From Gammaproteobacteria bacterium (GTDB taxonomy: Bacteria; Pseudomonadota; Gammaproteobacteria; Nitrosococcales; Methylophagaceae), in contig JAMDEF010000017.1 of NCBI GenBank assembly GCA_023488305.1, positions 1-35,296 of the forward strand: a stretch of 35,296 nucleotides of DNA. Reading direction: 5' to 3'. The notes below the pieces were generated by a model, which was not told where the DNA came from, did no database searches, and worked only from the letters and a program-made list of their open reading frames with translations. Shown here piece after piece: positions 6,949 to 18,630 of this stretch. Each line of letters starts with the position of its first letter. Within the stretch, counting starts at the first letter, position 1. A program made the translations under genes and the position numbers.

Positions 6949-7503
6949 TCAAAGCATGAAAGTGAGCAGACCCAAAACCATAAAAACACTACTGGCCGCA
7001 TAGCGCGCGGCATTTAATGGTAATTTTTGCATCAGCTGATGACCGAATAACACAATAGGTACATTCGCCAGCATCATGCCAACTGTCGTACCGAGTGTCA
7101 CAAGAAAGAACTGCTGATATTGGGCTGCCAGAATAACGGTGGCGATTTGAGTTTTGTCGCCAATCTCGGCCAGAAAAAATAACACTAAAGTCGCGACAAA
7201 TGCCCCGTAACGATTCAGGTTAGAAGAAGCATCTTCTTCTTTATCTGGAATTAATATCCATAAAGCAACCGCAATAAAACTGATACCAATAAGTAATTGC
7301 CCAGTTTGCGGCGAGATAAACTCAGTGATCCAGACACCTAGCCAGGCTGAGAGACCATGATTAAGCAGGGTAGCGATTAATATGCCGAAAATGATGGGAA
7401 TGGGTGCACGGAAACGTGCTGCTAGGAATAACGAAAGGAGTTGGGTTTTATCACCGATTTCCGCCAGAGCAACGGTGGTGGTTGAGACAAAAAAAGCTTC
7501 CAT
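6949..7503 (-). CDS. TMEM165/GDT1 (UPF0016) family transporter, probable Mn2+ exporter (MneA-like)
   Basis: Two copies of the hallmark E-x-G-D-K-T motif (AEIGDKTQLLSLFLAARF and AEIGDKTQIATVILAAQY) in a six-TM protein. Confidence 0.93.
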   Translation of the reverse strand: MEAFFVSTTTVALAEIGDKTQLLSLFLAARFRAPIPIIFGILIATLLNHGLSAWLGVWITEFISPQTGQLLIGISFIAVALWILIPDKEEDASSNLNRYGAFVATLVLFFLAEIGDKTQIATVILAAQYQQFFLVTLGTTVGMMLANVPIVLFGHQLMQKLPLNAARYAASSVFMVLGLLTFML

Positions 7504-7521
7504 GATTTGGGTACTCAGGCG

Positions 7522-7575
7522 GGATAAAAACCAAAGGCAAATAACAACTACCCGCCTATGGAGTTGTTATTTGCC
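7522..7575 (-). terminator. Riboswitch expression-platform hairpin (terminator-like)
   Basis: On the minus strand, GGCAAATAACAACT pairs perfectly (14 bp) with AGTTGTTATTTGCC, followed by TTTGGTTTTTAT. The 5' arm overlaps the 3' strand of the predicted aptamer P1. Confidence 0.75.
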
Positions 7576-7857
7576 TCAGGTCTTGCCAATGCCATTCTAG
7601 CGAATGACACGAATCTGCCATGCGTCTTGAGGACACAAGTATGTTGACAGATTCACGCACTAGGGCCTGTTTGTCTTTCATCGTCACCACTGCTGGAGGC
7701 TATTTTTTCGTCCAACAAGGCGGAAATGATGCGATGTAGCGTTCTACATAAATCATTTGCAACGTTGTTGGGCGGGAAAATAGTCCCAGCCCTACGGGTT
7801 GAGGCGACGATGAGAGATAAACAGGCCCTAAGATGGGTAGACTACTCCCCTAAGACA
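7573..7857 (-). ncRNA. yybP-ykoY-type manganese riboswitch, interrupted by an inserted palindromic element
   Basis: On the minus strand: GTCTTAGG GGAGTAG ... GTCAACATAC ... GGCAAGA CCTGAGGC. P1 pairs GUCUUAGG with CCUGAGGC (8/8 including G-U). Further stems GAAUCUG/CAGAUUC and UGUCAUUC/GAAUGGCA. It precedes a GDT1-family Mn exporter gene, a known context for this riboswitch. Confidence 0.87.
7661..7830. mobile_element. MITE-like palindromic element with TA-flanked terminal inverted repeats
   Basis: TAGGGCCTGTTTgTCtTTCATCGTC ... GACGATGAgAGAtAAACAGGCCCTA. Inner complementary blocks: CTATTTT/AAAATAG, CCAACAA/TTGTTGG, AAATGAT/ATCATTT, ATGTAG/CTACAT. No ORF. Confidence 0.82.
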
Positions 7858-7862
7858 GGGGC

Positions 7863-7891
7863 ATTATAAGCAGGCTGTTAATTTGCTGCAA
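7863..7891 (-). promoter_or_regulatory. Sigma70-type promoter of the riboswitch/GDT1 transcript
   Basis: On the minus strand: TTGCAG - 17 nt - TATAAT. The predicted start site (~7856) coincides with the 5' end of aptamer P1. Confidence 0.85.
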
Positions 7892-7903: not shown

Positions 7904-8419
7904 TTATTCTCTAAGTTGCCAGGTGGGCTGGTCGTTATCATTAATGATGTGGTGTTTGATTAACCATTGCCGCGCATCTTCAGCATCTTCTTCAAACCAG
8001 GCTTTGGCACTGCCGAGGCGGAAACTGTAACCCCAACTGTCCATATCTAACATCATCCGATCTCGGCCGAGATCAGGCAGAAAATTACTAAGCAGGATCT
8101 GCAGATAACACACGCCATTTTCTTCGTCGTAATCACCGGCCGCATCTGTATCTAAATTGAGACGACGTTGACCATCCATACAGATATAGTGGCCGGCTTC
8201 ATGTAACGCCGAATGCACTGGCGTATCAATCCGCAGCAATAATTGATTGCCTAGCAGTCCAGCTTCACGTTCACCAAAAAAACTGCCGGGTATGGCTTCA
8301 TGCTCAGCAACCTGTTTGATTTCAATACCGTAAGGCTGCAGCAGTGTTTGCAGATGTAGCTGATAGAACGCTGTGCAATTCACCACATTTTGCGGATCAG
8401 ACACGTCGGGCATCACCAA
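7904..8419 (-). CDS. Conserved hypothetical protein with HExxH-like motif (putative metallopeptidase-like)
   Basis: Intact ORF with HSALHEAGHYICMDGQRR; overlaps tcdA by 23 nt in an operon-like arrangement. Confidence 0.7.
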   Translation of the reverse strand: MVMPDVSDPQNVVNCTAFYQLHLQTLLQPYGIEIKQVAEHEAIPGSFFGEREAGLLGNQLLLRIDTPVHSALHEAGHYICMDGQRRLNLDTDAAGDYDEENGVCYLQILLSNFLPDLGRDRMMLDMDSWGYSFRLGSAKAWFEEDAEDARQWLIKHHIINDNDQPTWQLRE

Positions 8420-9134
8420 TAATATGATTAATCACCAGGCCCGCCAGAGTTAAGCCGAATATAGAAGGCATATAACTTACCGTGCCATTTACAGCGCGGG
8501 CCCGTCCGCGACTGACTGGTTCCGGCGGCAATGGTGGTAACGGATATTCCAGCGAATAAACGGTTTGGATACCTTTACCGACACCGCGCTTGCGTAAATG
8601 TGAACGTAATTGTTTGGCGAGTTTGCAAATGGAGGTATTCATTAAATCGCCGGTACGCACCTGGGTCGGATCAAGCTTGCCGCCGGCGCCCATACTGGAG
8701 AATACCGGCAATTGATTACGCCATGCGGTTTCCAGTAATGTGGTTTTGCTGCTCATGCTGTCAATCGCATCAATGATTACGTCAAAGTCTTGATTCAGCG
8801 TGTCGGGAATCGATTCCGGCGTTAAAAAATCAGTAATAAGGTTCAGTTCACATTGCGGATTTATATCTGCGATCCGCTCTGCCATGACCTCGACTTTTAA
8901 TTTACCGACTGTTGAATTCAGTGCCACCAGTTGCCGATTCAGATTCGACGCTGACACGACATCATGATCCACCAGGGTCATTTTACCCACACCCATGCGG
9001 GCCAGCGCTTCAGCGGTAAACGAGCCAACTCCGCCCATGCCTGCCAGAAAAACATGGCTGTTCTGCAGCCGTTCAATACCGGAGTCTCCCAGCAAAATAT
9101 GCGTGCGCTCAAAGAGCGGATTGCTGTGCGCCAT
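8397..9134 (-). CDS. tcdA: tRNA threonylcarbamoyladenosine dehydratase
   Basis: E1/ThiF-MoeB fold: HVFLAGMGGVGSFTAEALARMGVGKMTLVDHDVVSASNLNRQ; TcdA-type C-terminus (KRGVGKGIQTVYSLEYP). Confidence 0.92.
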   Translation of the reverse strand: MAHSNPLFERTHILLGDSGIERLQNSHVFLAGMGGVGSFTAEALARMGVGKMTLVDHDVVSASNLNRQLVALNSTVGKLKVEVMAERIADINPQCELNLITDFLTPESIPDTLNQDFDVIIDAIDSMSSKTTLLETAWRNQLPVFSSMGAGGKLDPTQVRTGDLMNTSICKLAKQLRSHLRKRGVGKGIQTVYSLEYPLPPLPPEPVSRGRARAVNGTVSYMPSIFGLTLAGLVINHIIGDARRV

Positions 9135-17578: not shown

Positions 17579-17992
17579 ATGGATGAATTGCAACAACTTA
17601 AAGAAGAAAGCGAACAATGGCGCGCTGATCATCTTCGCTGGTTGGCCGATGCGGATTACTGGACACATCATACTCAACGGCTGGTTGCTATTTTACACAA
17701 GCTTGAACGTAGCCTGCCCGAACACAGTGCCAAGCTTGATCAACATGTTGGATTAATCATGCAACACGAAGAAACCATCAACCGCTATGAATGCGGGCTT
17801 GACCCTAATTGTATGTCCAGCTGTGACAGTTATATTGATTTAGAAAAGCAACGGGCGTTTCACGATAAGTTGCGAAAACTGCATAAAAAAATGCAACTGC
17901 ATCATCAGCAATTTACCGAGCAGTATAAAAACCAGATGGCGAATTTTTACCAACAAGCACAGTTATTGATGCAGGAAATTGCTGAGGGTTAG
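17579..17992 (+). CDS. Hypothetical protein, predicted coiled-coil/helical
   Basis: 138 aa ORF rich in charged residues and His/Gln (MDELQQLKEESEQWRADHLRWLADADYW...). Contains a short Cys cluster, CGLDPNCMSSC. Confidence 0.65.
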   Translation: MDELQQLKEESEQWRADHLRWLADADYWTHHTQRLVAILHKLERSLPEHSAKLDQHVGLIMQHEETINRYECGLDPNCMSSCDSYIDLEKQRAFHDKLRKLHKKMQLHHQQFTEQYKNQMANFYQQAQLLMQEIAEG

Positions 17993-18049
17993 GACCTGTT
18001 TATCTCTCATCGCCATCTCTGTTGTGGGCTTAAAGATAAACAAGCTCTA
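17990..18049. mobile_element. Short (60 bp) degenerate/deletion derivative of the 7661-7830 MITE-like element
   Basis: TAGGaCCTGTTTATCTCTCATCGcC matches the copy-1 end TAGGGCCTGTTTATCTCTCATCGTC at 23/25. The other end (AAAGATAAACAaGcTCTA) is the inverted repeat. TA on both sides. Confidence 0.75.
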
Positions 18050-18051
18050 GA

Positions 18052-18630
18052 TTACCACTGGCGGACTCGCCCAGTATCAATGTGAATAAAGTCGGATTTT
18101 GGATAAAAACCAACGCCACCACCTTGCAGGCTGATCGCCATATCTCGCAATGCTTCAAGTTTTATCCCTGGTAATCGCAAATCTACCGCCATACCAAGTG
18201 TGTGGAGACTTTTTTGAGCAACACCAGTGCTGCTTTTGCGCAGCATTTCATTGCTGGCGGGGGAGCGATAACCGGAAATAATATGAAATGCTTGTTTACT
18301 TTGGGCCTTCTGCTGCAATAGAAACATTAAGTTCAGCAATTGTGGATCCATCTCAGTGTGTTCGCCGCTTCGATGATCACGTAACAGGTAATTAATTTCT
18401 GCCAGTCCGTCAGGTTGATATTCTCCATCTGCCCAATAAACAGCTTTGAGCTTTTCTTCGGTATGCAAGTTATAAAGCGACAATTGGCGAGGGGCTTCTT
18501 TAGGTAAATTTGCCAATGCCGCGGGCATCATTAGTATGGCGCCACTGGCAGCCAGATAACGTAATATTTCGCGTCTGCTAAAGGTTCTTTGCAGAATTGC
18601 GTCAGTTAAACGGTTATCAGAATCAGTCAT
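18052..18630 (-). CDS. DUF882/YcbK-family (peptidase M15-like) protein with Tat-like leader
   Basis: FSRREILRYLAASGAILMMPAALA leader; FHIISGYRSPASNEML...SLHTLGMAVDLRL...GGGVGFYPKSDFIHIDTGRVRQW. Confidence 0.9.
   Translation of the reverse strand: MTDSDNRLTDAILQRTFSRREILRYLAASGAILMMPAALANLPKEAPRQLSLYNLHTEEKLKAVYWADGEYQPDGLAEINYLLRDHRSGEHTEMDPQLLNLMFLLQQKAQSKQAFHIISGYRSPASNEMLRKSSTGVAQKSLHTLGMAVDLRLPGIKLEALRDMAISLQGGGVGFYPKSDFIHIDTGRVRQW

Follow-up and report, generated by a model that had tools for sequence, protein, structure and literature searches.

The analysed window was the whole stretch of 35,296 nucleotides from a methylophagacean draft genome. On its minus strand, positions 7856–7573 read as a Mn2+ aptamer of the yybP-ykoY type (RF00080), which is interrupted at 7661–7830 by a TA-flanked palindrome. 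The aptamer blocks GTCTTAGGGGAGTAG (7856–7842), GTCAACATAC (7648–7639) and GGCAAGACCTGAGGC (7587–7573) are followed, in 5′ to 3′ direction, by an intrinsic terminator and by the gene of a GDT1 (UPF0016) cation exporter (Table 1). GDT1 is a usual partner gene of the yybP-ykoY riboswitch, and the Mn2+ exporter context named in the original prediction was borne out by the PF01169 match of this gene. The promoter-like hexamers described just upstream of the aptamer were likewise present; both TTGCAG and TATAAT are kept in all species carrying the insert, with a variable spacer, and transcription probably starts at about 7856. The promoter was not listed by a pattern scan, because TTGCAG fits the sigma-70 −35 consensus at 3 of 6 positions only. 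Directly upstream lies a 171-aa open reading frame (7904–8419, minus strand) without Pfam or NCBIfam match, which adjoins a ThiF-family (TcdA-like) gene at 8397–9134.

Table 1 Features of the interrupted riboswitch locus (positions in the window)
Feature	Position	Strand	Basis
Promoter-like TTGCAG-17-TATAAT	7863–7891	−	Read in sequence; −35 at 7891–7886, −10 at 7868–7863
P1.1 5′ strand GUCUUAGG, switch helix	7849–7856	−	Pairs with 7573–7580 in 14/14 orthologues
L1 (GGAGUA) and P1.2 5′ strand (GUC)	7840–7848	−	RF00080 consensus match; invariant in 14 orthologues
P2 base 5′ strand (AC.CA)	7834–7838	−	Pairs with 7655–7659
MITE-derived insert GGGCCTG...CAGGCCC, TA on each side, in P2 apical loop; long hairpin arm	7661–7830	−	Multi-copy, empty site, fold
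P2 base 3′ strand (UG.GU)	7655–7659	−	Pairs with 7834–7838
P3.1, L3 (AACAUAC metal-binding loop), P3.2	7611–7654	−	RF00080 match; covarying pairs in P3.1 and P3.2
P4	7590–7609	−	Both sides changed in 5/8 pairs
P1.2 and P1.1 3′ strands GGCAAGACCUGAGGC	7573–7587	−	RF00080 match; pairing across orthologues
Intrinsic terminator hairpin with U-tract	7526–7580	−	Fold −26.9 kcal/mol; 8/17 pairs changed on both sides
gdt1, GDT1 (UPF0016) divalent cation/proton antiporter, 184 aa, regulated gene	6949–7503	−	Pfam PF01169, E 2.2e-42

At the Rfam gathering threshold (45 bits), RF00080 was not reported for the window. In a permissive search it matched 7588–7862 (275 nt, full model, positions 1–177, E 2.7e-6) with 29.2 bits, below the gathering score, and the alignment, insert included, placed the extra sequence into the P2 loop; the predicted yybP-ykoY identity is supported by this sub-threshold match. 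Natural short-arm and empty alleles were scored in RF00080 in place of an excised window sequence. The orthologous Methylophaga leaders reached 34.6–44.3 bits, all under the gathering score, the best being an element-free leader (G018, 44.3 bits), about 15 bits above the window allele. Matches to mir-982 and mir-137 in the permissive search were chance hits to the terminator hairpin and were rejected. L1 GGGGAGUAG and L3 CAACAUACUUG are exact in the window and invariant in 14 orthologues bar one L3 position. P1 (GUCUUAGG/CCUGAGGC) pairs at 8 of 8 positions as had been claimed, and this pairing is kept in all 14 orthologues.

The insert measures 166 bp between the TAs (7829–7830 and 7661–7662) and 170 bp when both TAs are counted. 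It had been described as a palindrome with perfect terminal repeats, and the outer 11 bp do form a perfect palindrome; the terminal repeat extends to about 23–26 bp with two mismatches. Five more copies of the element were found in the window's own genome (a 56%-complete draft) and 36–40 matches in each of four Methylophaga genomes (G006, G016, G017 and G021), so that terminal inverted repeats and multiple dispersed copies in own and related genomes agree with the proposed MITE nature. Longer family members span about 268–330 bp between exact terminal repeats and have the common ends TAGGGYCTGTTKATCTTTCAT; the window copy has been shortened internally. G006 and G021 have similar 166-bp forms at unrelated loci, and hairpins consisting of the terminal repeats only (48–60 bp) were found at unrelated loci, too. 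Among plasmid records, the sole relative of the element lies on a Methylophaga frappieri plasmid. A search for a parent transposon, using exact terminal inverted repeat matches in two genomes, yielded no repeat pair 0.7–1.8 kb apart, and an Rfam scan of 20 copy neighbourhoods revealed no further case of the element lying within a structured RNA, with only two tRNAs nearby.

Some further members of the family were noted. The window itself contains a second, short hairpin at 17989–18052 on the plus strand (TAGGACCTGTTTATCTC...GATAAACAAGCTCTA), and in G006 a 56-bp terminal-repeat hairpin is located directly upstream of a metH-like gene. Several longer copies (L118, L125, L129 and L002) hold a different inner segment, GTGAGATACATCCATGTATCTCACCCC..., which suggests a composite or nested repeat.

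The orthologous leader was compared in 15 Methylophaga genomes, window included. Eight leaders are element-free, six species have a short arm (47 bp in G016, G017, G020 and G021, 46 bp in M. pinxianii, about 36 bp in G006), and the long 166-bp arm was present in the window only, i.e. in one of 15 genomes, a 56%-complete draft assembly. The search for element-free relatives returned an empty-site allele, nearest to the window in G018, whose P2 region CCACTTTGGTG has a tiny loop (CAC-UUUG-GUG); in G019 and G011 P2 reads CAC-YTCG-GTG. With 20 nt, the G018 region has the length of that of the window minus the element and one TA, and differs from the excised window P2 at three bases (ATCTTA vs. ACTTTG), the TA itself being absent from G018. 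Together with the TAs flanking the insert, this empty site is in line with the TA target proposed. The motifs GGGGAGTAG and GTCAACAT lie 25–49 nt apart in other gdt1 leaders of diverse bacteria, 69–70 nt apart in most carriers and 193 nt apart in the window.

Because position, TA junctions and repeat sequence are common to the seven carriers, the alignments point to their derivation from one ancestral insertion; in the window and G016 the left repeat is identical, with two repeat mismatches in common. Since the same insertion was found in six related species, it is older than several species, and the 170-bp arm is an outlier. The original prediction did not include this age, the sharing among species or the trimming that most carriers show; with trimmed 36–47-bp versions in six related species, the insertion is not a lone recent event. 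Trees of gdt1, the downstream flank and the upstream flank grouped the window with G020, then with G016, then with the others, the empty-site species being placed outside or weakly. The window promoter and 5′ leader are G016-like (112/117 identical positions vs. 97/120 to G020), and since the genes are closest to G020, local recombination at the locus is probable. The arm history can be read as an ancestral 47-bp arm with one regain or as an ancestral 170-bp arm with repeated trimming, each requiring about two events.

For the conservation analysis, 14 distinct leaders were aligned at full length after removal of the insert from each carrier. The aptamer structure was paired in 98.3% of cells, with 9 pairs changed on both sides; when one strand was slid as a control, pairing fell to 30–43%. 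Changes on both sides sit in P3.1, P3.2 and P4; in P1 the variation is confined to one side of each pair, and the P2 base hardly varies. The 5′ arm of the terminator includes the entire P1.1 3′ strand, so that P1.1 and terminator are mutually exclusive. Among the seven carriers, identity amounts to 97.6% and 94.5% in the aptamer halves and 95.4% in the terminator, far above the 61.1% at gdt1 third codon positions, which indicates strong constraint on aptamer and expression platform since the insertion. On this evolutionary evidence, conservation and covariation after insertion, the riboswitch would remain functional, as proposed. The arm itself is 81.7% identical, between the aptamer and gdt1 third positions; in a test for selection on arm pairing, neither the pairing of its strands (84%) nor their compensatory changes exceeded shuffles. 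These values fit an arm which is tolerated, with at most mild constraint.

Two observations concern the expression platform. The terminator loop GGCGGG (7551–7556, minus strand) is exactly complementary to CCCGCC (7518–7523, minus strand) before the gdt1 ribosome-binding region; both are invariant in 14/14 distinct orthologous leaders and may constitute a second, translational control layer in the read-through RNA. The element-free outgroup leaders (G019, G011, G022, G012, G007, G023 and G014) have no clear U-tract (UUUGGUACUG, CUUGGUAUUG), and a U-tract on the hairpin is present in G018 and the carriers; within the genus, the platform may have changed its mode of control, with intrinsic termination on one side and a translational or Rho-dependent mechanism on the other.

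Folding was assessed with equilibrium models, the scope of which is secondary structure outside tertiary contacts and Mn2+. The leader folds with z = −8.6 vs. shuffles, which, like the RF00080 E-value and the five further copies of the element in the same genome, speaks against a chance pattern. The insert is predicted to fold independently, the remaining helices being the same as in the excised leader, which, together with the RF00080 alignment, speaks for the predicted accommodation as a P2 extension. The energy difference between OFF (terminator) and ON (antiterminator) states was −11.7 kcal/mol with the insert present or removed, and P1.1 formed with a probability of 0.97 with and 0.96 without insert; its mean was 0.82 with 168-nt shuffled and 0.93 with random inserts. 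P2-base pairing was weak, at 0.20 with the natural insert, 0.12 without insert and 0.00 with shuffled or random inserts. In the models, palindromy would hence matter for keeping P2 helical, less so for the other helices. Because shuffled inserts also usually spare P1, P3 and P4, preserved folding alone does not argue strongly for accommodation.

On the level of sequence, the aptamer, the insert, the terminator and its mutual exclusion with P1.1, the shared insertion and the empty site are established. We consider it probable that the locus encodes a yybP-ykoY Mn2+ riboswitch controlling gdt1 by antitermination, into whose P2 loop a MITE inserted in a common ancestor. In the studied homologues from L. 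lactis and X. oryzae, Mn2+ docks L1 onto L3, whereby P1.1 is stabilised and the terminator prevented (PMC6754395; PMC11087558). As the same parts occur here in the same order, Mn2+ is expected to turn gdt1 on. A TA-targeting MITE would have entered the four-base P2 apical loop in the ancestor of the seven sampled Methylophaga species. Being palindromic, the element would fold back during transcription and lengthen P2 outward, and would thereby leave the four-way junction, the L1/L3 metal site and the P1.1 switch helix undisturbed, the arm presumably pointing away from the docking face. With Mn2+ present, the aptamer would bind the ion and dock, P1.1 would form, the terminator would be blocked and gdt1 transcribed; with Mn2+ absent, the terminator would form. 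Later internal deletions would have cut the arm to hairpins of 36–47 bp in most species, the window species having the 166-bp arm. The best reading is a putatively working Mn2+-induced antitermination switch, with a transposon-derived P2 helix that is tolerated and perhaps mildly used.

A broken or uncoupled switch in the window, with gdt1 locked ON or OFF and only the trimmed 47-bp alleles working, appears unlikely. It could arise if the long arm slowed folding, if RNase III cut the arm, or if the 5′ P1 strand mispaired, and it would agree with the trimming of the arm to 36–47 bp in all six other carriers, with the proposal that RNase III targets the long RNA hairpins formed by NEMIS, a MITE of Neisseria (PMC2229807), and with a delay of P1 3′ strand synthesis by seconds, which 168 nt would be expected to cause. 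However, the modelled two-state energetics are unchanged by the insert, and core, terminator and promoter hexamers of the window are intact, without visible decay; moreover, the two strands would stay paired after cleavage in the distal arm, and the ON/OFF choice is made while transcription is still under way. An origin of the 170-bp version as an assembly artefact, by which the riboswitch hairpin was fused with inner sequence from another copy of the MITE, is very improbable. The draft, 56%-complete assembly, some 40 repeats per related genome and the nesting of the long arm among short-arm species would be compatible with such a join, but the inner junctions CATCGTCGCCTCAACCCG and CAGTGGTGACGATGAAAGACAAACAG have no other exact occurrence in 24 genomes (the window's own being 56% complete), so that no known copy offers an assembler a stretch on which to jump. 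The inner repeat ends also match one another (CATCGTC/GACGATG), and a similar 166-bp form exists at the other loci in G006 and G021.

It is unlikely, to about the same degree as a broken switch, that the arm was exapted as a functional P2 (junction stabiliser, protein binder or kinetic tuner) and kept by selection. Its persistence in seven species at an identity above that of third codon positions, the compact, nearly perfect hairpin of G006 and the finding that, among the tested kinds of insert, the palindrome alone gives any closure of the P2 base would speak for such a role. Against it, the pairing of the arm is incomplete and its compensatory changes do not exceed shuffles, a 3-bp P2 suffices in element-free species, and recombination between repeats could explain arm conservation. 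A speculative idea with a small chance of being correct is that transposon-derived hairpins, differing in length from one Methylophaga species to another, set how fast the Mn2+ switch folds or how sensitive it is. The preferred reading remains the tolerated P2 helix in a switch that probably still works.

The layout of L1, L3, P3, P4 and four-way junction corresponds to that in the L. lactis yybP and X. oryzae crystal structures (RF00080), as do the overlap of P1.1 with an intrinsic terminator and the Mn2+ homeostasis gene downstream. The locus differs from both in its P2, a MITE-derived arm of 36–170 nt instead of a small hairpin, and in its score below gathering. Rickettsia palindromic elements (RPE) sit in tmRNA and RNase P M1 RNA genes, perhaps neutrally, according to a secondary account (PMC2229807, citing Ogata 2002). 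As far as that account goes, a palindromic mobile element is tolerated there within a structured RNA in an apparently neutral manner, as here, but in housekeeping RNAs, whereas the present case involves a ligand-sensing aptamer and an allelic series across species. The Correia/NEMIS MITEs of Neisseria are also TA-flanked and transcribed with neighbouring genes into long RNA hairpins; they differ in lying near or in mRNAs, with proposed RNase III action, and not within an aptamer. A review of prokaryotic MITEs regards riboswitch formation as merely conceivable and cites T-box motifs that BOX elements may contain (PMC10969869). In the open-access literature, to which the search was confined, no case of a mobile element inside a riboswitch aptamer was found; palindromic mobile elements in structured RNA genes were already known.

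The deficit of the window allele relative to its element-free orthologue illustrates how genuine switches can escape detection at covariance-model thresholds. In the locus, nature provides an allelic series (0, 36, 46–47 and 166 bp) for a mobile element in a ligand-sensing RNA with conserved core. With it, the tolerance of a riboswitch for foreign structure can be tested directly, as can the idea that transposons may give rise to the variable arms of structured RNAs.
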